Assembly: GCF_026625605.1 (NCBI RefSeq)
Contig: NZ_CP113054.1
Span: forward strand, 2,170,001 to 2,234,000
DNA from: Luteolibacter sp. SL250
GTDB taxonomy: Bacteria; Verrucomicrobiota; Verrucomicrobiia; Verrucomicrobiales; Akkermansiaceae
Direction of reading: 5' to 3'
DNA: 64,000 bases
Part shown: one piece after another, positions 24,375 to 54,699 of the stretch
How the letters are laid out: the number at the start of each line of letters is the position of its first letter
How positions within the stretch are numbered: the stretch's first letter is position 1
Notes under the pieces: model-generated
The model's input: the letters and a program-made list of their open reading frames with translations, nothing else
Databases searched by the model: none
Told to the model about the DNA's origin: nothing
Made by a program: the position numbers and the translations under genes

Positions 24375-24543
24375 GTAAGGAGGATGGACACTCTTGTCCA
24401 TCGGCTGCAATGGCAGGCAAAGGAGGAGAAGTTTTCAGTTTCCAGTTTTCAGGGAAGAGAAGAAGGCTGACCGCGAGCCGAGAAGATCCCTTTGCCATGG
24501 GTTCCGGTTGCAGCCGGTGGACAAGAGTGTCCATCCTCCTTAC
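24375..24543. repeat. REP/BIME-like paired inverted element, copy A
   Basis: Both ends read GTAAGGAGGATGGACA inward. The left arm folds as GATGGACA-CTCT-TGTCCATC (24383-24402). The right arm has the same fold in opposite orientation with AGAG in the loop. The arms are separated by about 110 bp. The element begins at the base after the recQ stop. Its right end supplies the TAA stop of the RodZ-like gene. The core shares an aggagaagttttcagt string with copies B and D. Confidence 0.85.
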
Positions 24544-25190
24544 TCCCGGATGATCAGCGCGCGCGGCGGGTTTGCGCGTGGTTCCTCCTGTGGAACCCCG
24601 GCGGCGGCCTGGGAAACATCCTGCCGGCTGGGCGCGGAAGTGGGGATCTGCGGGGACGGTTCCGTCTCCTTCACCGGAGCGGTGGCGGCTTCCGATGGGG
24701 CGGCAATGCGGGTTTTTGCCTGCTGCTGCGGTTCCTCATGGCCGAATTTGGCATCCAGAAATTGGTAGCCCTTCACCACGCCGATGACGAGGCCGGCGCT
24801 CAGGAGCATCAGCCACACGGCTGACCACTGGTTGCGCGCGGGTTCCGGTTCCCGTTCCTTCTGGCGTGGATCCCGCACCGGGCGTTTCGCTGCGGACGGC
24901 TGTGGTTCACCGCCGGAAAACATGGGCTGCCAGGCCTCCCCGCTCACATAGGAGGCGGGCTCCAGTGCGTTCAGCCACGGTTCGGCGTCCACCTTGAGGT
25001 ATTCGCTGTATTGGCGGAGGAAGCTTTTGGCATAGGTGGGGCTGGTGAAGACCGAAAAATCGTCCGCTTCCAGCGCCTCCACCACGCTGCGGGGGATCCG
25101 CGTGCGGAACACCACGTCATCCACCGCCAGGTCCGCGGCCTCGCGGGCCCCGCGCAGACGTTTGCCGATCTGGTCCCAAACTTCTTCCAC
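24540..25190 (-). CDS. RodZ-like helix-turn-helix membrane protein
   Basis: The 216-residue protein starts with an Xre-type HTH_25 domain (IGKRLRGAREAADLAVDDVV, TYAKSFLRQYSEYLKVD), a basic linker rich in Pro/Arg, one transmembrane helix (WLMLLSAGLVIGVVKGYQF) and a Pro/Ala/Glu-rich periplasmic tail. This is the RodZ arrangement, in which the HTH part binds MreB and supports rod shape. The large C-terminal beta domain of E. coli RodZ is missing. GTG at 25190 is the start. The stop TAA lies inside repeat copy A, so the C-terminus may have been altered by its insertion. Confidence 0.8.
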   Translation of the reverse strand: MEEVWDQIGKRLRGAREAADLAVDDVVFRTRIPRSVVEALEADDFSVFTSPTYAKSFLRQYSEYLKVDAEPWLNALEPASYVSGEAWQPMFSGGEPQPSAAKRPVRDPRQKEREPEPARNQWSAVWLMLLSAGLVIGVVKGYQFLDAKFGHEEPQQQAKTRIAAPSEAATAPVKETEPSPQIPTSAPSRQDVSQAAAGVPQEEPRANPPRALIIRE

Positions 25191-25280
25191 CTATTGGCAT
25201 CATACATATCCTCCGTCGCGGCGCAAGCCTCCGGCATTGCCATTTGACGGCGTGGCGGTCAGGAGGCATCCTCCGCCGCG

Positions 25281-25760
25281 ATGTCCGCTCCGAAACACGT
25301 GCTCTTCGTCTGCACCGGCAATACCTGCCGCAGCCCCATGGCGGAGGGTCTGTTCCGGAAGGTGGTCGGTGGCCGTGGCGACTACGCCGTCAGCTCCGCC
25401 GGGGTATCCGCATCGAAAGGCACACCCGCCAGCCCGGAAACGGTCATGATCCTGAAAAAACGCGGTGCCGCGCTGGACAAGTTCGGCAGCCGCCTCGTGT
25501 CAAAGGCCATTCTGGAGGAAGCCACCCATGTTTTCGCCATGACACGCAGCCACCTGCAGACGCTGGAGGCGCGATTCCCGGAGTTTTCGGACAAGTTCCA
25601 CCTCGTCCGCGAGTTCGCCGGTATTCCGGAAAAGGGCGGCCACATCGACGTGCCGGATCCCATCGGCATGGGACATGCCGCCTATATCGAGACCGCGCGG
25701 GTGCTGGAGGAAGCCATACCCACGATCATCGCCTACATCGACAGCACTCACAAAGTGTGA
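25281..25760 (+). CDS. Low-molecular-weight phosphatase, probably protein-arginine phosphatase (YwlE type)
   Basis: The 159-residue protein has the LMW-PTP P-loop FVCTGNTCRSPMAEG: catalytic Cys, Arg after five residues, and Thr in the place that distinguishes YwlE-type arginine phosphatases from tyrosine phosphatases, which carry Ile or Leu there. The catalytic Asp is in DVPDPIGMGH. It may dephosphorylate arginine-phosphorylated proteins in the cytoplasm; that specificity is inferred from the Thr. A McsB-type kinase is not in the window. It precedes ptsH by 110 bp on the same strand. Confidence 0.9.
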   Translation: MSAPKHVLFVCTGNTCRSPMAEGLFRKVVGGRGDYAVSSAGVSASKGTPASPETVMILKKRGAALDKFGSRLVSKAILEEATHVFAMTRSHLQTLEARFPEFSDKFHLVREFAGIPEKGGHIDVPDPIGMGHAAYIETARVLEEAIPTIIAYIDSTHKV

Positions 25761-25870
25761 CCCTTTCCCGGCTCCGGCGCACTCCGCCGGGGCGGATTCC
25801 GGGCGGGTAACTTTTGCCTTGGATGCCCCGCATCCGCTTCCTAGAGTGCCCCGGCGACAGCTACCATTCC

Positions 25871-26137
25871 ATGGCCAAAAAAGACTTCACGATCCTCAAC
25901 AAGCTCGGCATCCACGCACGGCCCGCAGCCCAGTTCGTCAAAACCGCGAACCGCTTCCAATCCGATATCTTTGTGGAAAAAGACGGCGAGGAAGTCGATG
26001 GCAAGAGCATCATGGGCCTGATGATGCTGGCCGCCGGACACGGCTCCGTCATTTCCGTCAATGCCGAAGGCTCCGACGCGGATGCCGCGCTCGCCGCCAT
26101 CGGGGATCTGATCGAGCGCAAGTTCGAGGAAGATTGA
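25871..26137 (+). CDS. ptsH: Phosphocarrier protein HPr
   Basis: The 88-residue HPr contains the phosphorylated His in LGIHARPAAQFV and the regulatory Ser site in DGKSIMGLMMLAAGHGS. The Ser site is intact, so HPr kinase/phosphorylase control is possible. HPr accepts phosphate from enzyme I, which is encoded 92 bp downstream. No EII components are in this window. The in-frame ATG at 25814 would add 19 unneeded residues; ATG at 25871 gives the family length. Confidence 0.97.
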   Translation: MAKKDFTILNKLGIHARPAAQFVKTANRFQSDIFVEKDGEEVDGKSIMGLMMLAAGHGSVISVNAEGSDADAALAAIGDLIERKFEED

Positions 26138-26153
26138 TCACCCTCAGGGGGAT

Positions 26154-26173
26154 GGGAGGCGGGTTTGCCTCCC
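26154..26173 (+). promoter_or_regulatory. Hairpin between ptsH and ptsI
   Basis: GGGAGGC at 26154-26160 and GCCTCCC at 26167-26173 form a perfect 7-bp stem with a 6-nt loop, 16 bp after the ptsH stop and 56 bp before ptsI. There is only a weak T run after it. It could attenuate ptsI relative to ptsH or protect the ptsH 3' end. Confidence 0.5.
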
Positions 26174-26229
26174 TGAATTTGATCCTTGCCCGGGAGGCGG
26201 TGGGACGACCACGCTGGGGTAGTTAAGAA

Positions 26230-27999
<1,770 letters not shown>

Positions 28000-28000
28000 A

Positions 28001-28227
28001 GTAAGGAGGGAGGACACTCTTGTCCTCCGGCTGCAATGGCGAATCATTTAAGATTCACCGCAAAGACGCAAAGGGCGCGAAGTGAAGAGATGAAACTCTT
28101 CAAAATCCGCCGGATCCGCCGGATTCGTAAGATTTGCGGTCAGCCTTCTTTCTTCCCTGAACACTGAAAACTTCTCCTCTTTTTATCGCCAATGCCGCCG
28201 GAGGACAGGAGTGTCCTCCCTCCTTAC
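28001..28227. repeat. REP/BIME-like paired inverted element, copy B
   Basis: Inward-facing GTAAGGAGGGAGGACA arms carry GGAGGACA-CTCT-TGTCCTCC at 28009-28028 and GGAGGACA-GGAG-TGTCCTCC at 28200-28219. The core of about 170 bp contains sequence shared, inverted, with copy D and an actgaaaacttctcct string shared with copies A and D. It fills the gap between the convergent ptsI and trpB stops, which lie 1 and 3 bp from its ends. Confidence 0.87.
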
Positions 28228-28230
28228 TCC

Positions 28231-29433
28231 TCACACTCCGCCGAGCAAATGCCTTGCCGCCTGCTCGACGTCCTTGTCACCACGGCCTGACAGGTTCGCG
28301 ATGATGATGGAGTCCTTCGGCAGGCTGCCGGCAATCTTCGAGACGTAGGCCATGGCGTGGGAGGACTCCAGCGCGGGGATGATGCCCTCGCAGTGGGCCA
28401 GTTCCTTGAAGGCGGCCAGCGCCTCATCGTCCGTGGCGTAGGTGTATTCCACCCGGCCCATGTTCTGGAGGTAGGCGTGTTCCGGTCCCACGGCGGCGTA
28501 GTCCAGACCGGCGGAGATGGAGTGGGTGAGCTGGATCTGGCCGTCGTCATCCGCCAGCAGCCAGGTTTTCGTGCCCTGCAGCACGCCCAGCTTGCCGCCC
28601 TGGAAACGCGCCGCGTGGCGCTCCGGGATGATCCCGTCGCCCCCGGCCTCCACGCCCACCATGCGGACGTTCTCATCACCCAGGAATGGGTGGAACAGGC
28701 CGATGGCGTTCGAGCCGCCGCCCACACAGGCGACCAGCAGGTCCGGCAGGCGGCCTTCCTTTTTCAGGATCTGCTCCCGGGCCTCCACGCCGATCACGCG
28801 GTGGAAATCCCGCACGATCATCGGGAAAGGATGCGATCCCAGCGCGGAGCCGAGGATGTAGTGGGTGTGGTCCACGGTTGCCACCCAGTCGCGCATCGCC
28901 TCGTTGACCGCTTCCTTCAGGGTGGCCTGGCCGGCGGTCACCGCGCGGACCTCCGCCCCCATCAGGCGCATGCGGGCCACGTTGAGCGCCTGGCGCTCCA
29001 TATCGACCGCGCCCATGTAGACCACACACTCCATGCCGAAGCGCGCGCAGACGGTGGCGGTCGCCACGCCGTGCTGGCCCGCGCCGGTTTCCGCGATGAT
29101 GCGCTTCTTGCCCAGCCGCTTCGCCAGCAGGATCTGGCCGATGGCGTTGTTGATCTTGTGCGCGCCGGTGTGCAGCAGGTCCTCCCGCTTCAGGTAAATC
29201 TTGGCCCCGCCCAGCTTCTCCGTCCACCGCTCCGCGAAATACAGCGGGGTCGGACGGCCCACGTAGTCCGTGAGCAGGGCGTTCAATTCGTCGTGGAAGG
29301 CGGGATCATTCTTCGCGGCCTCATAGGCCACGGACAGATCCTGCAGCGGGGTCATCAGCGTTTCCGGGACGAACATGCCACCGAACTGGCCGAAGTGGCC
29401 GGTGGTGTCTGGGGTGATGGTAGCGGCTGCCAT
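28231..29433 (-). CDS. trpB: Tryptophan synthase beta subunit
   Basis: TrpB condenses indole with serine using PLP. The 400-residue length is normal. The PLP lysine is in [15 protein letters not shown]. Further motifs are [17 protein letters not shown], the PLP-phosphate loop [12 protein letters not shown], and [14 protein letters not shown]. The N-terminal [14 protein letters not shown] is typical of TrpB1. trpA and other trp genes are not adjacent on either side, so the gene is detached from a trp operon here. It starts at ATG 29433, 98 bp from the divergent DUF72 gene. Confidence 0.97.
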
Positions 29434-29531
29434 GTCCGCGCAGCATCCCGTGGGACAGCACCGGATTCAAGGGCGAATGCGGGATGAATGGCCTCCATTC
29501 CCGCAACCGGATTTGATGCTATACTCCCGAC

Positions 29532-30278
29532 ATGCGCTTCTGGATCGGCACTTCCGGTTTCCAATACCCCGAATGGAAGGGGGGCTTCTACCCGGCCGAC
29601 CTGCCGGTGGCAAAGATGCTCGGCTACTACTCGGAGCGGTTTTCCACCACGGAGGTCAACTACACCTTCCGCCAGATCCCGAAGGAAACGACGGTGGCGA
29701 AATGGGTGGCGGGCACGCCGGAGGAGTTCCGCTTCACGTTCAAAGCCCCGCAGAAGGTCACGCACTTCGCCAAGCTGCGGAACTGCGGCGACACCATGCG
29801 CCATTTTCACCACATCATGACCGGGCTGGGGGAGAAACGCGGCGCGGTGCTGCTGCAACTGCCGCCGAACGTGGAGAAGGACACGGAGGTGTTGGCGGAT
29901 TTCCTGGTGGAGCTGCCGCAGGAAATGAGGGCGGCCTTCGAGTTCCGCCATGAATCGTGGTTCGACGGGGAGGTGTATGCGCTGCTGGAAAAGCACAACG
30001 CCGCGCTCTGTCTGGCGGAAAGCGCCGAGCTGGCGACACCGCGCAAAGTCACCGCAGACTTCGGCTACCTGCGGCTGAGGCGGGAGGATTACACGGATGC
30101 GGACTTGGGGGATTGGGCGGCCTTCGTGAAGAAGCAGAAGAAGCACTGGGGCGAAGTCTATGTCTACTTCAAGCACGAGGAAAAGGGCGTCGGCCCCGTC
30201 TTCGCGGAGAAGTTCAAGGGGATGGTACAGGAAGTCCTGCAGATGTCTTCGAAGGATATGCGGCGCAGCCGCCCCTGA
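29532..30278 (+). CDS. DUF72 (YecE-like) protein
   Basis: The 248-residue protein has the DUF72 TIM-barrel pattern. It begins WIGTSGFQYPEWKGGFYP, continues with FSTTEVNYTFRQIP and FRFTFKAPQKVTHFAKL, then LLQLPPNVEKD and EFRHESWF. The family has structures but no firmly established activity. No partner is evident. It is followed by 193 bp without a recognised gene. Confidence 0.92.
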   Translation: MRFWIGTSGFQYPEWKGGFYPADLPVAKMLGYYSERFSTTEVNYTFRQIPKETTVAKWVAGTPEEFRFTFKAPQKVTHFAKLRNCGDTMRHFHHIMTGLGEKRGAVLLQLPPNVEKDTEVLADFLVELPQEMRAAFEFRHESWFDGEVYALLEKHNAALCLAESAELATPRKVTADFGYLRLRREDYTDADLGDWAAFVKKQKKHWGEVYVYFKHEEKGVGPVFAEKFKGMVQEVLQMSSKDMRRSRP

Positions 30279-30471
30279 AAAATTGGTAGGGCTGGCCCGG
30301 CCCGGGCCGCCGAAGCTGTACGCCGGAAGGCCTGCGGGATATCATTTGTTCATCGAACGTCATCAGCCAAGCCACAGTCCGCGCGCCGGGGCTGCAATGC
30401 GCAGACTCTGACCATTATCGGAATGACGGAAGTGATTGCCGTTTGGATCCGATTCACCTATCCGATCAAGC

Positions 30472-31332
30472 ATGAAACTTATCGCCGTGAAACATATGGT
30501 GCTGGCCGTCGGGTTGCTCCTGGCAGTGGTGCAGAACTCCCAGGCTTTCGCTCCTTTCTACAGTTGGAAGGACAAGTGCGCCGGGGCCGACGTGATCGTC
30601 CGTGGCGTGGTGGTGGATGTCGTCCAGCTTGTCGGAAAGGTCAAAGACTCCCGTGGGTCTGAATTGGAAACCATCACCGACGGAGGGTACACGGGGCCAT
30701 CTGCGGTTGCGATTTTCCGCGTCACCGCAGTGGTGAAGGAAGGAGATTATCTGACGGAAAGTGTTATCTTCATCCCTTGCGGCTACAACCATGACGAAAA
30801 TCCGGCGGAGCTGACCAAGACCAAGGAATACTTCCTTTTCCTGCGCTCGATGGGATCGAACTATTTTGATCCGTTGAACAACGTCGCCATGCACAGAGTG
30901 CAGAAGGGCAGGGTTGATCTGGAGGGAGGTGACGGAGACAACGCGTTTGGAAGCGAGGCGGGAAAGGATAAAACAACGGATGACGAGGACTTCGTGAAGC
31001 GGATCCGCGAGGCGCTGCGGGAGGTCGGGCAATATCTCCCCGAAGGATTCACGGCCAAAAACTACACCGTGACCGATAACTACGTTCAGTTGCTCTATGA
31101 GAAGGCCTTCGAGAAAACCGGAGACAAGCAGTTCTCGCCGCCAGCCGGAGATAACGTGACGTGGGATCCCACGCCGGGCATTGCCCTGAAGGCACTGGGG
31201 CTGGAGCTCCGCAAAGGATATTCGATGGCACTCACCCCGGGAGGGTTCGTTTACAGTGCCGATGCTGCGGGGCATGAGGAATTCCTGAAACTGAACCGCA
31301 CCATCGGTATTGAGATTGATGAGGGACGTTGA
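30472..31332 (+). CDS. Hypothetical secreted protein (286 aa)
   Basis: The protein has a signal peptide (MVLAVGLLLAVVQNSQA, cut before FAPFYSW). The mature part starts with a CAGADVIVRGVVVDVVQ segment and holds one more Cys in IFIPCGYN. It looks like a beta-rich N-terminal domain of about 120 residues plus an acidic helical C-terminus. I do not recognise a family. ATG at 30472 is chosen over 30436 because it begins the signal peptide. It probably acts in the periplasm. Confidence 0.7.
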   Translation: MKLIAVKHMVLAVGLLLAVVQNSQAFAPFYSWKDKCAGADVIVRGVVVDVVQLVGKVKDSRGSELETITDGGYTGPSAVAIFRVTAVVKEGDYLTESVIFIPCGYNHDENPAELTKTKEYFLFLRSMGSNYFDPLNNVAMHRVQKGRVDLEGGDGDNAFGSEAGKDKTTDDEDFVKRIREALREVGQYLPEGFTAKNYTVTDNYVQLLYEKAFEKTGDKQFSPPAGDNVTWDPTPGIALKALGLELRKGYSMALTPGGFVYSADAAGHEEFLKLNRTIGIEIDEGR

Positions 31333-31383
31333 AGATGGATGCCTTGCCGCCGCGGTCCGCCTCATCCTACCCTCCCGCCGCCC

Positions 31384-31902
31384 ATGCGAATCGAATACGA
31401 AGCCACCCTCGATGACGTCAGCGAGCCGATGATCCGGCACTACCTGCGGGGGAGGAACTATGCCCGGCAACGGTTCCGCGAGCCGATGTGGGGCGGCGTG
31501 GGTGCGATGATCGGCTACTATTTCATCTCCGTCCTTTCGAAGCAATCGGCGGACCTGTGGTGGGTGTATCCGCTCGTCTTCATCGTGGGGTACGCGGTGG
31601 TTTTCATCCCCATCCGGCACACCGTTTCAAGGAGGATCCGCAACTATGTGAAACGCGAGACCGGGCCAAAGTTGCCGATTCCGACCAGCTTCGAGGTCAC
31701 CGATCGGCAGCTCCATTGCGAAAGCATGAAGGCGGATATGTCATTCAGCCTCGAGGACCTATCCGATGCCACGGAGGATGCGGACCGGCTGGAGTTCGTC
31801 TTCGGAGATGCGGGCGTCTGCACCATCCCGCTGCGGGTTTTCCGTGACCGGGAGGAAAAGGAGGAGTTCGTGAGGCGGGTGAAGAGGGAAGGGCTGCGGT
31901 GA
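31384..31902 (+). CDS. YcxB-like membrane protein
   Basis: The 172-residue protein has two membrane helices (GGVGAMIGYYFISVL and WWVYPLVFIVGYAVVFIPI) near the N-terminus. The C-terminal YcxB-like beta domain follows (SFEVTDRQLHCESMKADMSF, then EFVFGDAGVCTIPLRVF). This is the usual layout of PF14317 proteins, whose function is unknown. ATG at 31384 is preferred over 31339. Repeat copy C starts 72 bp after the stop. Confidence 0.78.
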   Translation: MRIEYEATLDDVSEPMIRHYLRGRNYARQRFREPMWGGVGAMIGYYFISVLSKQSADLWWVYPLVFIVGYAVVFIPIRHTVSRRIRNYVKRETGPKLPIPTSFEVTDRQLHCESMKADMSFSLEDLSDATEDADRLEFVFGDAGVCTIPLRVFRDREEKEEFVRRVKREGLR

Positions 31903-31973
31903 GGGGAAGATCAAGCTCGATTGGCACCGGTTGTCGTGAAGATGCGGCAGCCCGGCGCGATAGCGAACGAGCA

Positions 31974-32383
31974 GTAAGGAGGGAGGACACTCCTGTCCTC
32001 CGGCTGCAACGGAACCCCTAGCAAAGGCATCCAACGGACGAGTTCATCCGCCCTCCAACCACGAATCACATGAATATTGAAGATATCCATATTCCTCCCT
32101 TTGCGTTTTCTTCGCGACCTTAGCGTCCTTGCGGTAGATCCATCCTGGCTCGCCAATGCCGCCGGTGGACAAGAGTGTCCACCCTCCTTACTCGGCTGCA
32201 ACGGAACCCCTAGCAAAGGCATCCAACGGACGAGTTCATCCGCCCTCCAACCACGAATCACATGAATATTGAAGATATCCATATTCCTCCCTTTGCGTTT
32301 TCTTCGCGACCCTAGCGTCCTTGCGGTAGATCCATCCTGGCTCGCCAATGCCGCCGGTGGACAAGAGTGTCCAGCCTCCTTAC
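31974..32383. repeat. REP/BIME-like paired inverted element, copy C, with internal tandem duplication
   Basis: The left arm is GTAAGGAGG with hairpin GGAGGACA-CTCC-TGTCCTCC (31982-32001). Right arms occur twice (32164-32183 and about 32356-32375) because the core plus right arm has been duplicated in tandem. The first right hairpin is GGTGGACA-AGAG-TGTCCACC; the second has a broken pair (TGTCCAGC). This element explains most of the 523-bp gene-free stretch at 31903-32425. Confidence 0.87.
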
Positions 32384-32384: not shown

Positions 32385-32425
32385 CCGGCATTGCCGCTGG
32401 TCTCCGGAAATCGTTTCCTCCCGGC

Positions 32426-45375: not shown

Positions 45376-46779
45376 TCAGGATTTGGGATTGGGGCCTAGG
45401 AAACGGACGGTCTGGCGGACGGTGGCATTCCCCGGCTCCGCGTGGATGATGAAGGTGATCTCCCGCGGTCCCCGGTAGTGCGCGCGTTCCTGCAGCACGA
45501 CGATGGGCCGGGCCAGTTCGCCCAGCGCGTCCAGGGTGATGGTTTCCCCCGCGCCGCTGGTGGTGAATCCCGCCGGGTTCCCCTCCAGGGAAATGGTGAA
45601 CCGCACCGGTTGGTTGCGCTTGTTCACCAGGCGCACCTTGTAGTGGTTCCGCACCGTGGCGGCGTCATTGTAGAAGCCCGGCCCCGGCGAGCGCGTGACC
45701 TCCGCGAATACCGGCTTCGCCTTGTGGAACGCCACCACGCCCAGCACCGCCATCCCGACCACGCCGAGAAAGGAATACGCCAGGATGCGCGGGCGGAGGA
45801 TGCGCGTTTTCTTTCCCGCCAGACTCTTCGTCGAGTCATAGCGCACCAGTCCGGTGGGCCGCTTCAGCTTGCGCATGATGTCATCGCACGCGTCGATGCA
45901 CGCCGCGCAGCCGATGCACTCCATCTGCAGCCCGTTGCGGATGTCGATGCCGGTCGGGCAGACCTGCACGCAGCGGGTGCAGTCCACGCATGCGCCAGCG
46001 TCCGGGTTCGTCGCCTTGCCCCGTGGCTCGCCACGCCGCGCGTCGTAGCCGATCACCACCGTCTCGTCGTCCGTCAGCGCGGACTGGATGCGGCCATACG
46101 GGCAGAGGATGATGCAGAACTGCTCCCGGAAGTAACCGAAGCAGAAGAAGAATGCGGCGGTGAAGAATGCCACCGTGCCGAACGCGGTGAGGTTCCCCAT
46201 CGGGCCTTCCTTCACCGCCATGTAGAGGCCGCGCAGGGAGACGAAGTAGGAAAGGAAAACGTGCGCCAGGACGGCCGCGGCCAGCAGGTAGAGGCCGTTC
46301 TTGATCAACCGCTTTGTGATCTTGCGCGCGTCCGCCTGGGCGGCGTCCAGTCTCCGGCGGGCGGGCGCGTCGCCATCCACCAGCCGCTCGATCCGGCGGA
46401 ACACATGCTCCAGGAAGACGGTGTAGGGGCAGGCCCAGCCGCACCACAGGCGGCCCAGCAACGCCGTGAGGAAAAACAGCAGGAACCCAAGTCCGCTGAT
46501 GCCGAAGAACAGCACCCACAGGTCCTGCGCCAGCAGCGTGAGGCCGAAAAAATGGAACCGCCGCTCCGCCACATCCAGGAACACCGCCGGAGTGCCGTTC
46601 ACCGGGATCCACGGCAGCGCGACGTAGATGCCGATGAGCACCATGGCGAACCACCGCCGCGCCCGCGTGAACTTCCCCTTCACATCCGCCGGATGCAGGA
46701 CGTGGTGGGAGCCATCCGCGTTGATCGTGGTCACGGAGACCAGATTCGGACGCTTTTGGGATGGCTGCGGGGCGGACAC
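45376..46779 (-). CDS. ccoG: Cytochrome c oxidase accessory protein CcoG
   Basis: The 467-residue protein has five or so membrane helices, the RLWCGWACPYTVFLEHVF motif, FCIILCPYGRIQ, and two ferredoxin-like sets (CVDCTRCVQVCPTGIDIRNG and CIGCAACIDACDDIM) for 4Fe-4S clusters. A C-terminal Ig-like FixG domain follows. CcoG reduces Cu(II) for CcoI or otherwise supports cbb3 assembly. It starts with GTG 46779 and is the first gene of the operon ccoG, small ORF, SafE-like, ccoI, PocR/AraC. ccoNOP genes are not upstream in the window. Confidence 0.96.
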   Translation of the reverse strand: MSAPQPSQKRPNLVSVTTINADGSHHVLHPADVKGKFTRARRWFAMVLIGIYVALPWIPVNGTPAVFLDVAERRFHFFGLTLLAQDLWVLFFGISGLGFLLFFLTALLGRLWCGWACPYTVFLEHVFRRIERLVDGDAPARRRLDAAQADARKITKRLIKNGLYLLAAAVLAHVFLSYFVSLRGLYMAVKEGPMGNLTAFGTVAFFTAAFFFCFGYFREQFCIILCPYGRIQSALTDDETVVIGYDARRGEPRGKATNPDAGACVDCTRCVQVCPTGIDIRNGLQMECIGCAACIDACDDIMRKLKRPTGLVRYDSTKSLAGKKTRILRPRILAYSFLGVVGMAVLGVVAFHKAKPVFAEVTRSPGPGFYNDAATVRNHYKVRLVNKRNQPVRFTISLEGNPAGFTTSGAGETITLDALGELARPIVVLQERAHYRGPREITFIIHAEPGNATVRQTVRFLGPNPKS

Positions 46780-46948
46780 GGTCGGGAAGATCTCAGATCA
46801 CCCTCCGGATGGCTCCGCAGGGATTGGCGGAAACTGTGCGGATGTTGCTGGTGGGCAAGAGGAGCGCATGTCGCTACGCCTTCTTCGCATCTGGCACGTC
46901 GTCCGGCCCGACCGCATGGGCGCAGCGGCGTGCGCCCCTCCATTTTCC

Positions 46949-49447
46949 TCACCGCGCCAGATCGCCCAGTGTCTCCAGAATCTCCACCCGCACGCGGTCC
47001 GCGACGGTGCGATCGATCTCCGTGGTGGCCAGCCACTTCGGCTCGGCGAGGGCGCGGTTGTTCCACAGGACTTCCTGCGGCGCATCCGCCAGCAGTTCCT
47101 CCGCAGCCTCGATCTTCTTGCCATCCACTCCCTTTCCGCGGGCGTCTTTGATCGCGTCCCGCAGCATGACGAGGTATTGGAAATCATAGATGCCCTCGCG
47201 GATGGCCTCCAGCGCCTTGCCAGGGACGACTTCCTTCGCATCCAGAAACAGCGGGCAATAGTGCAGGGTGTTGAGACCGTTGTTCCATGATCCGAAACTG
47301 GCGTTCCGCCCGGTGTCCGCCACGCACCAGAAGCCGATGGCGTCCGCATCCATCGTCCACGCCATCCAGGCCTGGAGACGCCAGTAGCTGTAGGGGTCGA
47401 ATCCGCCGATGATGGGATAGCATTCGTAGAGGCTGAGCTGCTGCTTGCCGGAGCGTTTCCGGTAGTAGTCCACGTAACGCGGGCCGTGCGTGACCAAGTG
47501 GGAATACTTCAGGCACAGCTCGTCCATCGCGTCGATGGACGGCTGCCAGGCGTCCCATGGTTCATGATAGACGGGGTCCATCCACATGCGGAACTTCACG
47601 CCGGATTTCTTCACCGCCTCCACCCATGCGCGGATGGCCTCGTCCTCCTTGTAGGGGGAGGTCTCGTCCAGTCCCGGTTCGTCGATGATGAGGAGGGAGA
47701 ACTTTGCCGGGTCCAGGCCCAGGCTGATGACATGCTTCTCCCAGAAGCGCAGCCAGGTGGCGACGCGCTTGTCGAAGGCCTCCGGATCCTTGTCATGGTG
47801 GACGCCGTTGATGTGGGCGCGGTTGTCCTTGTTGCGGCCGGAGATGTTGAGCTTGTAGCCGTGCGCCGTGGGCATGATCTCCTTCACCCAGGTGTCGAAC
47901 ATGGCGGTGTCCGGCTCATCGGCGGGCGTGGCATAGGTCTGCTCCGCGCTGAAGTTTCCCTTCGGCCAGAGGGTGATAGGCCCCCATGGCAGGTCCAGCT
48001 TGTAGTCCAGGATCAGCTCGCGGAAGGGGCGCATGACATTGGATGCCACGCCGTAGCGGGCGATGTCCCACTTGTTCAGGTAGTCCCAGCCGGAGAAATG
48101 GAGCGACTGCTTTTCCGGGAAGTCGAACGGATGGAGGTGGACGTTGAAAGGGATCTCCCGCGCGGGGATGGACGCATCCGCCGGGGCGATCCTGACGACG
48201 CCCGCGTTGTTGCCATCCTTCCCGGCACCATGGATGGAAAGGGATACCTGGCGCGTCATCCCGGCTGGGATGGTGATGCGGTGACCGCCCTCCGTCTTCT
48301 CCGCGTCCGGCAGCGCATGGACGATGGCGGTGCGGGCCACCGTCTCCGTCCACTCCAAGGAGCGCACGCGGATGTGGGATGCATCCCCATGACCGCCGAT
48401 GGAAAGTGTGAGAACCTGCTCCCGGGCTGAGGCGTTCGTGATGTTGAAGGTGGCGGTGCGGTCCTCCCCACGGATGAGATGGACGGAAAGGCGCGGATCC
48501 TTTTCTGCGGGAGGCGTTTCCAGCCATTGCGGGTCCCGTCCGGCGGTGGTCTGCCAGATGGTGAGCGGTGGCAGGTCTTTCTCCCGCCACACCGCCGCCT
48601 GCTCCGCGAGGATCTCCCGGCCGATCTCCCCCTGCGGCAGGATCGCCCGCTTCTCCGCCGGGGTGTCGTTGTTCGCCTGCGCCTTTTCCCGCAGGGCGGT
48701 GAGCCGGGTGCGGATGGGCGCGGCCTTTTCCTCCGGAAGATCCTCGAGCTGAGCGAGGATGGTGGCGATGTCCATGCGGTGCCGCCGCTTTGACACGAAC
48801 AGCGTGGCATCCGTGCGGATGATCTCTTTCTCGATCTTGTCCCCGGTCACGCCGGGCTTCGATGGCTTCCAGGAAAGCAGCGCATCATCCCCGCGTCGGA
48901 TTTCGATCTCGTCGAGAAACACTTCCTTGCGGGTTCCCAGCACGATGCGGACATAGCGCCCCGCCGTGCGCAGCCGGTTGGTGGAGATGTTCCGGTAGGC
49001 GTACTCGTTGCCCAGCGGTGGCAGGATCTCGTTGTCCAGGTCGTTGAGCGAGGTGAGTTCCGCGACGCGGTGCCATTCCTTGCTGTCGTCGCTCACATAG
49101 AGGTCGATGGTGCCGGGCCAGATGTGGACGCGCTTCGAACTGAGGGCGACGCCCGCACCGCAACCGAGCGTGATGCCGGAGATGGGCTGCCGCTTGCCAA
49201 GATCCACCACGACCTGCACCGGCCACCGCGCGTCCACCCAACCCACGGTGTGTTCCGGGTCCTCCCACAACACCTTGGCGGAGCGAAGTCCGTCGGTAAG
49301 CTTCTTCGCTTCATTGCCGTTGTTGGTGGCCTTGTGGCCGCCAAGCCGGGGGTAGGCCACATAGGGCCGGCCGAGAGCGATGTTTTCCGCCGTGGCGGAG
49401 GAAATGACGGATAGGAAGGCGAGGGTGGTCAGTGACGGGAAACGCAT
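46949..49447 (-). CDS. Secreted discoidin-domain glycoside-hydrolase-like protein (DUF4091 type)
   Basis: The 832-residue protein has a signal peptide (TLAFLSVISSATA), an F5/8 type C (discoidin) domain of about 150 residues (ENIALGRPYVAYP, WVDARWPVQVVVDLGKRQPI, RYVRIVLG) that binds sugars, a beta-sandwich region and a C-terminal TIM-barrel-like region (FSLLIIDEPGLDE, YWRLQAWMAWTMDADAIGFW). The last fits DUF4091-type uncharacterised glycosidases. IDEPGLDE may hold acidic catalytic residues. It probably acts on an extracellular glycan. It ends 169 bp from the ccoG start. Confidence 0.75.
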   Translation of the reverse strand: MRFPSLTTLAFLSVISSATAENIALGRPYVAYPRLGGHKATNNGNEAKKLTDGLRSAKVLWEDPEHTVGWVDARWPVQVVVDLGKRQPISGITLGCGAGVALSSKRVHIWPGTIDLYVSDDSKEWHRVAELTSLNDLDNEILPPLGNEYAYRNISTNRLRTAGRYVRIVLGTRKEVFLDEIEIRRGDDALLSWKPSKPGVTGDKIEKEIIRTDATLFVSKRRHRMDIATILAQLEDLPEEKAAPIRTRLTALREKAQANNDTPAEKRAILPQGEIGREILAEQAAVWREKDLPPLTIWQTTAGRDPQWLETPPAEKDPRLSVHLIRGEDRTATFNITNASAREQVLTLSIGGHGDASHIRVRSLEWTETVARTAIVHALPDAEKTEGGHRITIPAGMTRQVSLSIHGAGKDGNNAGVVRIAPADASIPAREIPFNVHLHPFDFPEKQSLHFSGWDYLNKWDIARYGVASNVMRPFRELILDYKLDLPWGPITLWPKGNFSAEQTYATPADEPDTAMFDTWVKEIMPTAHGYKLNISGRNKDNRAHINGVHHDKDPEAFDKRVATWLRFWEKHVISLGLDPAKFSLLIIDEPGLDETSPYKEDEAIRAWVEAVKKSGVKFRMWMDPVYHEPWDAWQPSIDAMDELCLKYSHLVTHGPRYVDYYRKRSGKQQLSLYECYPIIGGFDPYSYWRLQAWMAWTMDADAIGFWCVADTGRNASFGSWNNGLNTLHYCPLFLDAKEVVPGKALEAIREGIYDFQYLVMLRDAIKDARGKGVDGKKIEAAEELLADAPQEVLWNNRALAEPKWLATTEIDRTVADRVRVEILETLGDLAR

Positions 49448-49648
49448 GATGGAACTGGGAAAGGGATACGTTCCCCGTCCGGCGGGATATCCCGCTTTTC
49501 CATCGCGTTATGTTGTTTTTGTGGATGTAGGTGGGGACGTCCCTCTCATTGCGGTTGAAAGATGCAAGGATCAGAGGATCCGGAGAGAAAATAGGCACTC
49601 GCGGCACCACTCGGACGGCGGTATGGATGGGGTGAATCGTATTCCGCC

Positions 49649-49972
49649 ATGATCGAACTGCTGCGCCAAAGGGACCTGACGAAGATCAACTACTACCAGT
49701 CCCTGCTGGAGGCGGCGGGCATCCCTACCTTCATCCGGAACGAAAACCTCTCCACCACCGAGGGCGTCTCCATCCCGGACTTCTTCCCCGCGCTGTGTAT
49801 CCTGAATGACGCGGATGAGGCGGCGGCGGTGGAGATCATGCGCCGCGACATGGAGCAGGCGGAGCGGGTGGTGGAGGGCGAAGTCACCTGCGCGAAGTGC
49901 AGCGAGGTTTCCCCGGCGAACTTCGGCAGTTGCTGGAACTGCGGCACCGCGCTGGAGGGGATGATGGCGTGA
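49649..49972 (+). CDS. DUF2007-type protein with C-terminal zinc ribbon
   Basis: The 107-residue protein starts MIELLRQRDLTKINYYQSLL, then EAAGIPTFIRNENLSTTEG. This matches DUF2007 (a GlnB-like ferredoxin fold called putative signal-transducing protein). Its C-terminus adds a short zinc ribbon (CAKCSEV and SCWNCGTAL). Function is unknown. It is convergent with a three-gene membrane-protein operon. Confidence 0.8.
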   Translation: MIELLRQRDLTKINYYQSLLEAAGIPTFIRNENLSTTEGVSIPDFFPALCILNDADEAAAVEIMRRDMEQAERVVEGEVTCAKCSEVSPANFGSCWNCGTALEGMMA

Positions 49973-49994
49973 GCCATGCGCTGCACGGGGGGCG

Positions 49995-50579
49995 TCAGGG
50001 ATGGATCGGGTTTGCCAGCAACTGCCACGCGAAGAACCCTGCGGTCGCCAGTCCGCCGACGGCGGTCCATGCGCGGTCGCGGTTCTTTCCCCATGACAGC
50101 ACCGCCACCGCCGCCGCGAAAGGCACGGAGAGATAGACGACCGCACTGCCCGCCTGCACTCCGATGCGGGCCAGCGGCGGGACTAGCGCGGAAAGGAAGA
50201 CCACACAAATCCCGCAGACCGGTAGGGTGATGGTGGCGTAGCCCAGCTTTCCCGGGCCGGTGGCATCCATGACCGTTGGCTCATCGGCGGCGCGGTGGCG
50301 CTCCTCCTCCATGAAGCTGCGGATGGCATTGAACGGTGCACGGGAGTCCAGCAACGCCGCCAGCTCCCGCAGCCTGACTTCCCCCTCGGTCCCGCACCAG
50401 CGGCGGTCATCGCCGGACGGATACAGCAGATCGGAGTCCGCGCAGAAATCCCGCACCAACTGGTGGTTCAGGTCCTTCTTGCGGATGGAGATGAATTCAT
50501 CCCAGTCGTGTGGGCTACCTTTCCCGTCCAGAAAGGCCCGGATCGTCTCCGCAGCGGCTGTTCGTTCACCGGAGGTCAT
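49995..50579 (-). CDS. Hypothetical membrane protein (194 aa)
   Basis: An N-terminal soluble part (about 105 residues, with DWDEFISIRKKDLNHQLVRD) precedes three helices (LPVCGICVVFLSALVPPLA, VVYLSVPFAAAVAVLSW, WTAVGGLATAGFFAWQLLA). The soluble part has two Cys (DFCADSDL, RRWCGTEGE). No family was recognised. It is the third gene of a minus-strand operon, 15 bp after the preceding stop. Confidence 0.65.
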   Translation of the reverse strand: MTSGERTAAAETIRAFLDGKGSPHDWDEFISIRKKDLNHQLVRDFCADSDLLYPSGDDRRWCGTEGEVRLRELAALLDSRAPFNAIRSFMEEERHRAADEPTVMDATGPGKLGYATITLPVCGICVVFLSALVPPLARIGVQAGSAVVYLSVPFAAAVAVLSWGKNRDRAWTAVGGLATAGFFAWQLLANPIHP

Positions 50580-50594
50580 CGGGCGGGGATCATT

Positions 50595-51137
50595 TTACCG
50601 GGCCGCCTCGGCCTTCTTCTCCAATTCACTGATCGCATCAGCCGCATTGTTGGTGATCCAGCAGCGCATGGAAACGCCTTCGTGGTAGAAGATCACTTCG
50701 TCACACCCTGTGCAGACCACCGCCTGCCAATTCACGCCCTTCTCTTCCCATGACAGCAGATAGTCCGCATGGAACCCTCCGCACATGGTATTCCCGAGTC
50801 TCTCGGTGAGGGCACCCGGTTTCCGGAGGACTCCGGCGATGGATTCACCCAATGCGTTGTCGGCAGCCATCAGGTGAAAAACGTGACCGTGGGAGATCTT
50901 TCGGGGCAGAAAAAGGATCTCGGCCCATAGCTTGTTTCTCTCGAAATACGGATGGGAGAACCCTGTGTGAATCGTCCTCGGGGGAGACGTGGGAGGAATG
51001 ACCTTTTCCAGCAGGGTGAAGTCATCCGGGACATCCAGATTGAGACGGTTCACCGCCACGACGCCCGGCCACACTCGCCAGACGATGATGGCGAGGATGA
51101 CGGTGATCCAAAGCAGGCGTTTCCGATTTTTCGTCAT
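50595..51137 (-). CDS. Hypothetical membrane-anchored protein (180 aa)
   Basis: The protein has one N-terminal transmembrane helix (LLWITVILAIIVWRVWPGVVAV) and a periplasmic domain of about 150 residues with GGFHADYLLSWEEKGVNWQ and two Cys close together (VCTGCDEVIF), plus another in MRCWITNN. The ATG at 51137 overlaps the TGA of the upstream gene (ATGA), so translation is coupled. No family was recognised. The Cys pair suggests metal binding or a disulfide. Confidence 0.68.
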   Translation of the reverse strand: MTKNRKRLLWITVILAIIVWRVWPGVVAVNRLNLDVPDDFTLLEKVIPPTSPPRTIHTGFSHPYFERNKLWAEILFLPRKISHGHVFHLMAADNALGESIAGVLRKPGALTERLGNTMCGGFHADYLLSWEEKGVNWQAVVCTGCDEVIFYHEGVSMRCWITNNAADAISELEKKAEAAR

Positions 51138-51532
51138 TCCGGTCTTTTGAAACTCAATGCCCGCTCTTGGAGGGTGTCGAACTGCTTCACCACGACTGAG
51201 GAGTTGCTCCAAAGGAACAACGGCTCCTGGAGGGCGCTTTCCTTCACGATCTTCACCTCCTGCGTCTCCAAATCCTTGCCGGTCACGTGGTCTTTCAGGG
51301 TGAACGTGGCGATCACGGTGGGGTCCATCACGTCGTTCGCCGGGAGGGCGACGCGGCGGGTGACGGTGATCTGGTGCCTTTCATCGGACGAGATGCTACG
51401 GAACAACTGCACCGGTTTGTGGCGGCCATTCATGATCGCATCCACGGATGGCACGGTGAACGCTCCGGCAATGATGAGGGCGACCACACCGAGGAGGATG
51501 GCTTTGAGATGGGTGCGCAGGAAACCGGACAT
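51134..51532 (-). CDS. Hypothetical membrane-anchored protein (132 aa)
   Basis: The protein starts MSGFLRTHLKAILLGVVALI with one transmembrane helix, followed by a small beta-rich periplasmic domain (QITVTRRVALPANDV, TVIATFTLKDHVTGKDL). The C-terminus ends FDTLQERALSFKRPE. It is the first gene of the three-gene minus-strand operon; its stop overlaps the next start. ATG 51532 is preferred over 51574. No family was recognised. Confidence 0.65.
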   Translation of the reverse strand: MSGFLRTHLKAILLGVVALIIAGAFTVPSVDAIMNGRHKPVQLFRSISSDERHQITVTRRVALPANDVMDPTVIATFTLKDHVTGKDLETQEVKIVKESALQEPLFLWSNSSVVVKQFDTLQERALSFKRPE

Positions 51533-51578
51533 CGTGCGCGGAGTGTGGGGAGATGGAAACGGGAAGTCCATCAACCGT

Positions 51579-52460
51579 TCATGCCCCGTCCCGCAGCTTC
51601 GCCTCCCCGATCAGCGCCGGGCCGGCCAGTTTGCCGAGGTTGTTCGACGCGAGCGGGCTGTCTCCGGTGAGCAGCTTGCCATCCCGGTGGACCTGGCCGG
51701 TGATGCCTTCGTTGAGGATCTCCACGCCGAGCTTCTGCAGGTTTTCCCCGACCAACCACGGCAGTTCCCCCGGCATGTAGCCGATCCCGATGTTCGCCCC
51801 CTTGTCGAGGCTGTCCGGAAAGACGCAGATGCGCGCACCCTTGAAGAGGTAGTTTTTCTCCCCTCCATCGACCGCCGCCGCCAGCAGGCACGCCGGCCCG
51901 TGACAGAGCGTGATGATGAGGCGCCCGTCCCCGACGGCCCACTCCAGCAGGCGTTTGATCTCCCTGCTGCGCGGGATGCCCGCAAGGACGCCGTGCCCGC
52001 CGGGGATGAAAACGCCGAGGTAGGGGGAAGCCGGTCCCGTCGCTTCTTCGATGATGTCCGCCAGCTTCTCCGGTTGCTTCAGTTTCGGCAGGTATTTGCC
52101 ATAGATTTTCCGGACTGTTTCGTCCTCTCCGGGCATGGCCCACATCTCCAATTTCACGGGGTTTCCGGAAAGTGTCGCCACATCGATCCCGAACCCGGCT
52201 GCGTCCATATGGTGCATCGGCAGCAGCATTTCCACCGGGTGGTTGCCGGTGGAGAACATCCTGCCATTTTTCATGAGGATGTACCGCTCGTCCGTGCCGA
52301 CCATCAGGACCTTCCATTTCCCGCCCTTGTAGGGATCCGGATAGGTGGTGCCGTCGAAGTCGGTCTTCGCGGAGGTGTATTGGGAAAGGGAATAGGGGGA
52401 GGGAAAGAAAGCGTTGTCCTCCGCCGGATCCACTGTGGGCTCTTTGCAGGATGAATCCAT
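51579..52460 (-). CDS. hchA: Protein/nucleotide deglycase, glyoxalase III (Hsp31/HchA)
   Basis: The 293-residue protein closely follows Hch[72 protein letters not shown] and the catalytic Cys in [11 protein letters not shown], with [14 protein letters not shown] and [13 protein letters not shown]. HchA repairs methylglyoxal-modified proteins and guanine and has chaperone activity. The DJ-1/PfpI catalytic Cys/His pair is intact. The ATG at 52460 gives the family start. It is divergent from mutY. Confidence 0.96.
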
Positions 52461-52577
52461 GGTTTTTTGGGGTTCTATGCCAGCCAACCATTCATTTTCC
52501 GGCGGTGCAACCATTCCTGTCGGCAGGAGGCCGGATTCTCTTGGCGGGGGAGGGGTCAAGGCATCACCATCGCCCCC

Positions 52578-53606
52578 GTGCTGAAACCCCGGTGGGAAAA
52601 GGATGCGGTCCAGGAGCGCGAGGCGTTCAGGGATGCGCTGGCGGCGTGGTTTTCGGTCAATGGAAAGGATTACCCGTGGCGGCGCACCAGCGATCCGTAT
52701 GCGGTGCTGGTGTCGGAGGTGATGCTGCAGCAGACGCAGATTGCGACGGTTTTGGGGCGGGGCTTTTACACGCGGTTTCTGGAGGCATTTCCCGATGTGC
52801 GGGCATTGGCCGCGGCGGAGGACGAACCATTGTTGAAGGCGTGGGAGGGCCTGGGCTACTACCGCCGGGCGCGCATGCTGCGGGACACCGCCCGCGCGGT
52901 GGGGGAGCATCACGGAGGAAAGTTCCCGGAGGCGCTGGAGGATCTGCTGGGGCTGCCGGGGGTGGGCCGTTACACGGCGGGAGCGGTGAGGGCATTCGCG
53001 TTCGACCTGCCCGCGGCGGTGGTCGACGGGAATGTGGCGCGGGCAATCTCACGGCTGATGGATTTCCACGGAACGGTGGATGACACGGCAGGATTGAAGA
53101 AAATTTGGGAATGGGCGGAGACGTTGGCGGACCCGGCACGGCCGCGCATTTTCAACTCCGCGCTGATGGAGTTGGGACAGACGTTCTGCCGTCCCGGGGT
53201 GCCGGATTGCCTGTCCTGCCCGGTCGCATCTTTCTGCAGGACCCGCGGGCCGGAACTTCTGCCGGTGAAGCGGAAAAAGGCGGAGGTTACGGTGGTGGCG
53301 GAGCATGCCTTGTGGCTGCGGGATCGGAAGGGCCGTGTGCTGATGCACCGGGAGCAGGGAAAACGCCGGGAGGGACTGTGGCGGCTGCCACTGCGGAACG
53401 CGGAGGAAGTGGTGTCGCTGCCGGTTGCGGCCAGCCATCGCTACACCATCACCCGCTATCGGGTGGACCTCAGCGTGCATGACGGCGGTATTTCCAAGGC
53501 GGGCGAAAGGGAAGGGGATGAATGGAAGACGCCGGAGGAGGTGCTGGCGCTGCCCATGTCATCTCCCTTCCGCGTGGTGGTGGAGCGCATGTTGTGCGAA
53601 AACTGA
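52578..53606 (+). CDS. mutY: A/G-specific adenine glycosylase MutY
   Basis: MutY removes adenine opposite 8-oxoguanine. The protein (342 residues from GTG 52578) has [19 protein letters not shown] with the catalytic Glu, the HhH motif [18 protein letters not shown], the catalytic Asp in [13 protein letters not shown], the 4Fe-4S loop [17 protein letters not shown] and a C-terminal NUDIX-like 8-oxoG recognition domain. The frame is open to 52467, but that part has no family similarity, so GTG 52578 is chosen with moderate certainty. A lipoprotein protease follows 47 bp downstream. Confidence 0.94.
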
Positions 53607-53653
53607 ATTTCCCGTGTGACGGAGTGGAGCCCGTGTGCTTCTCTGGCGGTGGA

Positions 53654-54409
53654 ATGGTAGGCTGGATTCACGCAGGGCTGTTGGGTGTGGGGGTGTGGCT
53701 CCTGCAGGCGTGCTCCATGACGCCTCCGCCGGCTGACCCCACGCCTCCGGGAAAGATGGCGCGGCAGATCGTGGCGGAGAGGGCCAGCGTGGTGCTGGTC
53801 ACCGCGAATGAGGACCTCCAGGGCTGGCAGGGCAGGAAATTCTCCCAGACCACCGCTCCGTCCGATGCGGATGGAGGCTCCGCCGCACCCATTTCTCCGG
53901 ATGGTTATTTCCTGACCGCCAACCACGTCCTGGAACGCATGGAAGGCAGGAATGTCTTCGTCTTTTATACCCGGAGTGGAAAGCTGGAGGTGAACAAGGC
54001 GCGTGTCGTCTGGCGTTCCGCCCCGGGGGATCTGGCGCTGCTCCACGTCCCGGTGCGGACACCCTACTATTACCAATGGACGCCGGGTGACCGCTGGTTG
54101 CCGGAGGGCACGGAGGTCATCCATGGCGGAGTCTCCACCGGATACCGTTCCGGCAATGGAAAGTTGTCCTCGTCCCTGCCACCGGAAGGTCCCTTCACCG
54201 GTGTGCGCAAGTTCAAGATCGACATCCCGCTGCTGCCCGGTGACAGCGGCGGCCCGGTGGTGAATGCGGTGGGCGAGCTGGTGGGCATCAACTCCGCGGT
54301 GGAGTTCCTGGTTCCGCTGGAGACGGCATTCTTCGTGGATTCCGAGTGCAGCCGCCCGAACACGAAGAAGCTTGAACAGATTATCCGAGCTGACCGCGCG
54401 AGACAATAA
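53654..54409 (+). CDS. Trypsin-like serine protease lipoprotein
   Basis: The 251-residue protein begins with a lipoprotein signal (LLGVGVWLLQACSM) and lies in the envelope. The chymotrypsin-fold triad is visible: His in FLTANHVLE, Asp in APGDLALLHV and Ser in LPGDSGGPVVNAVGELVGIN. No PDZ domain follows, so it is smaller than DegP/HtrA. The target is unknown. ATG 53654 gives the signal peptide. The stop TAA at 54407-54409 lies in a partly duplicated head of repeat copy D. Confidence 0.88.
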   Translation: MVGWIHAGLLGVGVWLLQACSMTPPPADPTPPGKMARQIVAERASVVLVTANEDLQGWQGRKFSQTTAPSDADGGSAAPISPDGYFLTANHVLERMEGRNVFVFYTRSGKLEVNKARVVWRSAPGDLALLHVPVRTPYYYQWTPGDRWLPEGTEVIHGGVSTGYRSGNGKLSSSLPPEGPFTGVRKFKIDIPLLPGDSGGPVVNAVGELVGINSAVEFLVPLETAFFVDSECSRPNTKKLEQIIRADRARQ

Positions 54410-54416
54410 GGAGGGA

Positions 54417-54699
54417 GTAAGGAGGGTGGACATTGCGGCTGCGCCGCTATGTCCGCTTCGCTCCCATTCCTGTCCACCGGCGGCATTGGCGATAAAAGAA
54501 GGAGAAGTTTTCAGTGTTTTGACTCAGACGATTTTAACTTCCAGTTCGTCTCAGTTGCTTCGCAACGGTGTTTTCAGGGAAGAAAAGAAAGCTGATTGCG
54601 ATTCTCACCTTTCTTCCCTTCGCGCCCTTTGCGACTTTGCGGTGAATCTCTTGTGATTCGCCAATGCCGCCGGAGGACAGGAGTGTCCTCCCTCCTTAC
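54417..54699. repeat. REP/BIME-like paired inverted element, copy D
   Basis: The left arm GTAAGGAGG-GTGGACA has its 4-nt loop replaced by 38 nt before TGTCCACC (54425-54478). The right arm is GGAGGACA-GGAG-TGTCCTCC (54672-54691) and ends CTCCTTAC. The core shares sequence with copy B in opposite orientation. It lies between the convergent stops of the protease and PVC cytochrome genes. TAAGGAGGGAG is repeated at the left end, and GTAAG next to the right end. Confidence 0.85.

Follow-up and report, generated by a model that had tools for sequence, protein, structure and literature searches.

Dispersed pairs of inverted REP hairpins in Luteolibacter sp. SL250, a probable RAYT transposase for them, and their frequent placement at stop codons

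The window analyzed here is a stretch of 64,000 nucleotides (nt) of Luteolibacter sp. SL250 (NZ_CP113054.1, positions 2,170,001 to 2,234,000), whose genome is a single contig of 4,916,937 bp, and four loci between genes of the window, called Elements A to D (Table 1), carry a common repeat that resembles repetitive extragenic palindromes (REPs). The original prediction, made from the window alone, was that the four loci share a conserved head and a hairpin with a 4-nt loop and have an inverted partner at the other end. The shared head and hairpin were found as described: GTAAGGAGG occurred nine times in the window, every time at one of the four loci, where shuffling predicted 0.12 copies, and GGACA-N4-TGTCC occurred eight times where 0.07 were expected. 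The 4-nt loop held for the short ends but not for the left end of Element D, where a stem of GGTGGACA and TGTCCACC encloses 38 nt containing a hairpin of their own. Inverted partners were likewise present as pairs, but because Element C consists of a pair plus an extra core-and-end unit in tandem, the window holds nine ends rather than eight. The RecQ-like gene to the left of Element A stops at 24374, the HTH_25 gene to its right takes its stop from the TAA of the right head (24540-24542), and the genes around Element B stop 1 nt before and 3 nt after it. Element D is flanked at both borders by further head-like words, ATAAGGAGGGA (54406-54425) and AAGTAAG (54691-54705), the former of which looks like an older head. 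The head GTAAGGAGG contains a Shine-Dalgarno-like AAGGAGG at all loci, the complement of which presumably resembles the 3′ end of 16S rRNA.

Beyond the window, the short hairpin end had 106 exact matches genome-wide and none with the reversed pattern. The short end consists of an 8-nt unpaired head, GTAAGGAG, followed by an 8-bp stem, a loop of 4 nt (among the aligned ends, either CTCC or CTCT), and a tail resembling GGCGGCATTGGC or GGCTGCAA. The long-loop end, in whose window copy the 38 nt replace the 4-nt loop, is a second end type with 61 genome matches at up to three mismatches and one match in the reversed control. Related ends (17 fixed bases, at most one mismatch) were found in 33 of 58 relatives, and thus the case that the original prediction had named as speaking against a mobile or functional family, occurrence at these four places only, did not hold. 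A chance repeat was rejected on the shuffles and the reversed patterns (0 and 0, with one match in the genome long-end control and one each in relatives G047 and G054). Pieces taken around 100 of the 106 short-end places and around the long ends (93 merged pieces, 370,690 bp) contained 172 ends, 115 short and 57 long, in 100 clusters. Fifty-nine clusters are plain inverted pairs of 36 to 421 bp with heads facing outward (27 short-short, 26 mixed, and 6 long-long), and the remainder are single ends (34) or more complex (7). The head letters outside the stem are the best-conserved part of the end: the first base of the 115 short ends is G in 112, T and A come next in 113, and an A follows in all 115, which gives GTAAG. 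Moreover, the base at −1 of the head is A in 136 of the 172 ends against a background of 18%, and context makes no difference to it. Two elements (G000:C1:2254845-2254880 and 3421443-3421478) are reduced to 36-bp perfect palindromes, head to head over one stem.

Paired stem changes had also been predicted, and in an alignment of 31 ends (30 distinct) two of the eight stem pairs change on both sides, nearly always together, with 22 paired-change cells versus 7.7 in shuffles. Pairing covered 99.2% of cells, with two cells classed as other, and fell short in the window at two ends (those at 24543 and 32383, both minus strand), each of which leaves one stem position unpaired; because the copies are related, the changes are not independent events. 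When the four outer stem pairs were left free in the search pattern, all four were complementary in 97 of 101 SL250 copies (shuffle mean 38.9, largest 50) and in 59 of 90 copies from relatives (shuffle mean 6.5, largest 15), the latter displaying 28 different stem arms. REPINs are defined as REP doublets that fold into one hairpin (PMC3116915). Three single strands were folded, one long end and the two whole pairs B and A; each pair folded as one long hairpin, with z scores of −10.1 and −10.3, respectively, against shuffles, in keeping with that definition, and plain pairs make up 59 of 100 clusters. The cores between the ends are shared as well: 35 of the 52 long enough for comparison join one BLAST-linked group, and a core motif at zero to two mismatches lies within 400 bp of a listed REP at 27 of 30 places, a zone that makes up 1.8% of the genome. 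Strict stem pairing would also suit hairpins that are retained for an RNA function at gene ends (as a terminator, for 3′-end protection, or for ribosome stalling) and whose mobility is past. We consider that reading improbable, as the most conserved letters are those of the unpaired head, cores are shared among copies, and Rfam gave no match in the window at its gathering threshold.

The Y1_Tnp domain matched at four places in the SL250 genome, and one of them, a REP-associated tyrosine transposase (RAYT) gene, lies at G000:C1:3699981-3700583, between ffh and miaA and 1.5 Mb from the window elements. The gene is flanked on both sides by the same REP as in the window: a long-short pair is located 3 nt ahead of its start codon, and the TAA of a short-short pair downstream is its stop. 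The product has the HUH (NHVH) and Y...NP (YIRRNP) motifs of class 2 TnpA-REP proteins, together with WQ and an R at the place of E. coli R104, and its best PDB match was E. coli TnpA-REP (4er8; E value of 2e-5), in alignment with which the W, Q, and R that lie in the guide-binding region are retained. The length of the pairs and their inverted ends would also fit miniature inverted-repeat transposable elements that have long terminal inverted repeats and depend on a DDE transposase. However, a hairpin with an unpaired head forms at each single end, and it is a Y1 transposase that is encoded by the gene lying between such ends; we regard that origin as very unlikely. The likeness to RAYT-mobilized REPs that the original prediction had proposed is supported, the observation beneath it is confirmed, and mobility would follow by analogy with other RAYTs.

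Several observations accompany the RAYT locus. The miaA frame (L035:2059-2190) begins within the downstream REP pair, and the N terminus of MiaA may be REP encoded (PPEDKSVLPPY). Among 49 heads near gene starts, 7 show a start called within the REP, and such starts may be an artifact of the gene caller. Two further RAYT-like genes (L036:802-1431 and L037:740-1390) are distant from the REP-flanked gene in the tree, and the genome also carries a 98-amino-acid RAYT fragment. Within its product, the L036 gene encodes the peptide SAGLQTGE, and the recurrence of this peptide where the neighboring open reading frame ends perhaps points to another REP family.

Thirty ffh loci were read out of 55 matching genomes, that of G010 yielding nothing. 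A RAYT gene is present between ffh and miaA in SL250 and in G003, G013, G025, and G032, a C-terminal RAYT remnant with REPs is found in G016, and ffh adjoins miaA directly in G007, G018, and G031; at the other loci read, miaA was out of reach. The RAYT unit is present or absent between species. The 20 best-per-genome orthologues, each scoring at least 240 bits, form one clade with support of 100/100, and the stop codon is inside a head in 14 of them, abuts a head in 2, and does neither in 4. Stop-bearing heads read TAAGGAG, TAGGAG, TGAGGAG, and once TAAGGGG, and the orthologues of congeners are accompanied by diverged REPs of the same design, GTAGGAG itself being found at those of G002 and G012. 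At least three REPs were found in 16 of 19 relatives with an orthologue (at least 240 bits) versus 7 of 39 without. REP counts among congeners range from 0 to 196 and follow the RAYT, which also argues against retention for an RNA function. The highest count belongs to G006, where tandem arrays adjoin the RAYT gene (L073, G006:C238) and several contigs start or end in REPs.

Mapping against gene ends, which had been suggested with the original prediction, was carried out on genes called with our own script in the pieces selected around REPs. The 100 clusters lie between unidirectional (48), convergent (41), or divergent (8) genes, and only 3 are inside genes, a placement that agrees with the broad definition of REP and REPIN location. 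Among 109 heads next to a gene 3′ end, 45 are at −4, such that the TAA within GTAAGGAG is the gene's stop codon (46 if clusters classed as inside are included), 28 sit 0 to 8 nt past the stop, and 5 genes end in the element in some other way. A stricter count was made of hairpin-bearing heads. Of 105 such heads in SL250, 20 contain the stop, 17 are within 15 nt of it, 18 are farther away, none is read through, and 50 have no gene end nearby; the corresponding numbers are 9, 9, 3, 0, and 34 for 55 heads of other relatives and 0, 2, 10, 0, and 40 for 52 heads of G006. The words T[AG]AGG alone were rejected as the cause, as 1006 non-REP words gave 36 stops and 77 occurrences in genes in other frames, compared with 20 stops and no read-through for the 105 strict heads. 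An E. coli control was too small to be informative: its 49 kb contained six GTAG REPs, one of which was 13 nt past a stop and none of which overlapped one. The 89 clusters between convergent or unidirectional genes would also accommodate a retained RNA function, as would the stalling of ribosomes by E. coli REPs within 15 nt of a stop (PMC12306157, citing earlier work).

One way in which heads could come to coincide with stops is if the RAYT inserts its unit at gene ends by choice, with a guide GTAA pairing with the antisense TTAC offered by gene ends of the form ...AG-TAA. IS608 chooses TTAC as its target. Besides the 45 stop-forming heads and the mere 5 genes that end in an element otherwise, two results favor such targeting. 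First, among 163 outer heads, 12 have a head-like GTAAG word no more than 20 nt away on the outward side, against a background of 0.6% that itself includes some REPs. Second, the proteins LysS, RsmI, LpxI, and HisH of SL250 were compared with those of congeners (30 loci in ten genomes), and no consistent truncation was seen. LysS is of equal length in 9 of 10 genomes, RsmI differs by at most one residue in 8 of 10 and is 4 and 6 residues longer in the other two, the SL250 LpxI is 2 to 3 residues longer than 8 of 9 orthologues, and HisH differs by one residue at the single locus read. Because these lengths match closely, the stop is carried by the REP yet stands at or near its old place, and truncation through random-frame insertion was rejected for the four genes compared, the longer LpxI notwithstanding. 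Against targeting, A at −1 is equally common where a stop plays no part, selection against read-through would likewise favor an in-frame TAA, and no empty site was seen. Moreover, none of the 12 heads near a gene end in G006, with its 196 REPs, supplies the stop, and therefore the pile-up at stops is not general. On balance we think targeting possible but unlikely.

We conclude, with a probability of roughly 0.87, that the four loci are copies of a REPIN or bacterial interspersed mosaic element (BIME) family, in which two inverted REP hairpins, their heads (A)GTAAGGAG facing outward, enclose a core that varies between copies. The ffh-miaA RAYT is the most likely agent of their spread, and copies are kept mainly at gene ends. 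By analogy with published work on other RAYTs, the enzyme would recognize the head and hairpin on a DNA single strand, cleave at the CT by which each end is completed (CTCCTTAC-T, complementary to A-GTAAGGAG), and insert the excised strand at another place. On the opposite strand, the T that faces the A at −1 follows the C of CTCCTTAC and so forms CT, the dinucleotide at which other RAYTs cleave (PMC8266576), and we infer that SL250 ends are probably cleaved there. Pairs would travel as a unit with the intervening core, and new copies would survive where they are least harmful: at a stop codon, either directly behind it or supplying it, or within the reading frame of a flexible loop, provided that the head is sense; stop-codon placement is common in SL250, and in-frame loop placement is seen in relatives, as described below.

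Several results weigh against this conclusion. The SL250 head is GTAAG rather than the canonical GT[AG]G, and the ends lack the strict GTAG or GT[AG]G terminal tetranucleotide, which by sequence sets these repeats outside the strict GTAG superfamily. The RAYT scored 56.7 bits (E value of 2.3e-15) against NCBIfam NF047646, under the cutoff of 80 bits. Single ends make up 34 of the 100 clusters, the long end alone folded with a z score of only −1.84 (10 of 200 shuffles were equally good), and at three mismatches just 3 of 15 places with the core motif are near a REP. Three of the 19 orthologue carriers have no REP by the search pattern, 7 of the 39 noncarriers have REPs, and the heads of G006 provide no stops. 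Finally, no empty and filled alleles of the window elements were found, the congeners being too distant for empty window sites.

In relatives, RAYTs of the same family are also found inside long reading frames. Among the RAYT matches listed, 47 are in frames of at least 500 amino acids (read by eye), and one such frame (L086, in G029) is a leucyl-tRNA synthetase (LeuRS) with a RAYT inside. Of 20 further long-frame loci fetched, 8 had LeuRS as the host, 3 CarB, 4 MetH (one at a contig end), 1 HsdR, and 1 IspG, 1 was without a telling host domain, and 2 outside the Pfam scan (L286 and L287) contain PHW and NHVH. For 7 of the 18 frames scanned, Y1_Tnp was not among the domains listed at 1e-6, and these 7 are assigned by their earlier RAYT match and motifs. 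A draw of 59 genomes from the phylum, 39 with Y1, gave six long frames, of which four were fetched (G061:C42 and G087:C7 were left out): PriA, HypF, and a radical-SAM protein, each with Y1, and one frame with Y1 only.

The LeuRS editing-domain match stops at profile position 142-146 in the eight LeuRS frames and L086. With the joined LeuRS flanks as the query, 55 of 59 genomes matched: 27 were uninterrupted, including SL250, 11 had both halves in one frame around 570 to 852 nt, G019 had a contig break at the loop with a RAYT beside the first half, 14 had shorter gaps or contig ends, and 2 were partial. All 12 genomes with a long gap or break have a RAYT match there, and the joined-flank search listed no second complete LeuRS in them. 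Other loops contain a REP pair without a RAYT (G001, L324) or other inverted repeats (G026 and G023); those of G005, G012, G015, and G039 are longer, with no REP seen on reading, and among the uninterrupted genes G006 (L301) and G007 (L300) have scar-like loops, SSHTGGTSTLLEAF and AGENVGETSALP. In five of nine fusions (G010, G018, G029, G030, and G036), REP hairpins at both edges are read in frame, as SVGV[SP]PT... and VG[GE]TPTLL, and their heads are sense, CAAGGAG and once CACGGAG. The G031 locus fits the same group; G028 has different paired hairpins, G014 and G017 have one on the C side only, and G058 has none of that kind. Across the nine fusions, LeuRS retains HVGH and KMSKS without change, as the RAYT does NHVH, WQ, R, and Y...NP, the NHVH invariance being biased because the frames were picked by the HUH motif. 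Nei-Gojobori dN/dS of the embedded RAYTs was 0.06 to 0.21 in the 8 of 25 printed pairs (those of at least 60% identity) with finite dS, the rest being saturated. In the tree, the MetH inserts form a clade (99/91), as do the CarB inserts (97/91), and the LeuRS inserts need one change, with weak support (44/37). An AlphaFold model of a LeuRS-RAYT fusion was uninformative, with a pLDDT of 50.5 and a pTM of 0.32. At about even odds, these RAYTs are translated inserts in housekeeping enzymes, in which REP-RAYT-REP lies in frame in loops (of LeuRS, CarB, MetH, and IspG, with PriA and HypF as hosts in other parts of the phylum), translated REPs act as linker peptides, the head stop has been turned into sense, and the lineages are tied to the host gene and selected for the nuclease residues.

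Table 1. Repeat elements of the window and enzymes of relatives that hold a RAYT domain
Feature	Position or locus	Ends or strand	Context
Element A, inverted REP pair	24375..24543	left end 24375-24402 (+), right end 24516-24543 (-)	between convergent genes
Element B, inverted REP pair	28001..28227	28001-28028 (+), 28200-28227 (-)	between convergent genes
Element C, pair 31974-32191 and tandem core-and-end unit to 32383	31974..32383	31974-32001 (+), 32164-32191 (-), 32356-32383 (-)	between unidirectional genes
Element D, long-loop end and short end	54417..54699	54417-54478 (+), 54672-54699 (-)	between convergent genes
Head-like ATAAGGAGGGA directly outside Element D	54406..54416	+	holds stop codon of trypsin-like gene, 54407-54409
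LeuRS hosts	L085, L086, L272-L274, L276, L277, L279-L281, L333		RAYT domain in frame
CarB hosts	L278, L282, L283		RAYT domain in frame
MetH hosts	L285, L288, L290, L291		RAYT domain in frame
IspG host	L289		RAYT domain in frame
HsdR host	L275		RAYT domain in frame
PriA host	L334		RAYT domain in frame, elsewhere in phylum
HypF host	L335		RAYT domain in frame, elsewhere in phylum

If the inserts are what they appear to be, a REP family that docks at stops would also persist because deletion would break an essential enzyme, much as for an intein but without splicing. One LeuRS loop in one genus offers RAYT-filled, REP-only, scar-like, and empty forms, by which one can test the old question of whether single-copy RAYTs persist because they serve the host or because they are fused into proteins it cannot lose, here LeuRS, CarB, and MetH. 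Likewise, a REP/RAYT system, probably of the Verrucomicrobiota, with a conserved head, covarying stems, a transposase, and an association with stop codons that can be measured would allow target choice to be tested against selection.

Although the original prediction knew of no description of the repeat, which held for the SL250 family within the literature searched, its kind is well known: REPINs, RAYTs, REP dimers, paired stem variants, REPs near stops or beside the rayt stop, and in-frame intragenic REPs, including those in tRNA synthetases, are in print (PMC3116915, PMC3733652, PMC2817692, PMC12306157, and PMC6006769). Among open-licence titles and the starts of abstracts, nothing was recognized on heads of a family acting as stop codons or on a RAYT inside an enzyme. 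Added here to the REPIN literature are the two end types, the shared cores, the stop-codon tie, the conserved ffh-miaA place of the RAYT, and its in-frame relatives. The REPINs of Pseudomonas fluorescens SBW25 are similarly dispersed, RAYT-linked inverted doublets that form a hairpin, whereas SL250 has longer mosaic cores, pairs of 36 to 421 bp, two end types, the head GTAAGGAG, and many heads as stops (PMC3116915). Pseudomonas and Xanthomonas REPs, with heads TGTAGGAG and GTAGGAG, share a head of GTA-GGAG form, a short perfect stem, and a location near the rayt stop or directly behind it, but most SL250 copies have one extra A, as in GTAAGGAG (PMC2817692). E. coli BIMEs and TnpA-REP (4er8; PMC8266576) share the HUH-tyrosine enzyme and its guide-binding W, Q, and R, and provide CT cleavage as a model of the end, whereas the REPs of E. 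coli carry GTAG, their stem is bulged, and none of the six in 49 kb overlaps a stop. Within TnpA-REP, the SL250 RAYT (NHVH and YIRRNP) differs from subclass 2.5 (DH[LF]H and YI[VI]ANP) and resembles subclass 2.7, of cyanobacteria and a few other phyla, in [ND]HVH, WQ, and a D at the E100 position, a likeness of motifs rather than of a joint tree; YIRRNP departs from the Y motif of that subclass, YI[LR][NQ]NP (PMC6006769). Of the same phylum by name are the GTAG repeats of Opitutus terrae, compared by description rather than by consensus sequence, which likewise comprise REP dimers, paired stem variants, in-frame intragenic REPs, and REPs downstream of genes, and for which the part of the source at hand mentions neither heads as stops nor a RAYT in an enzyme (PMC3733652).

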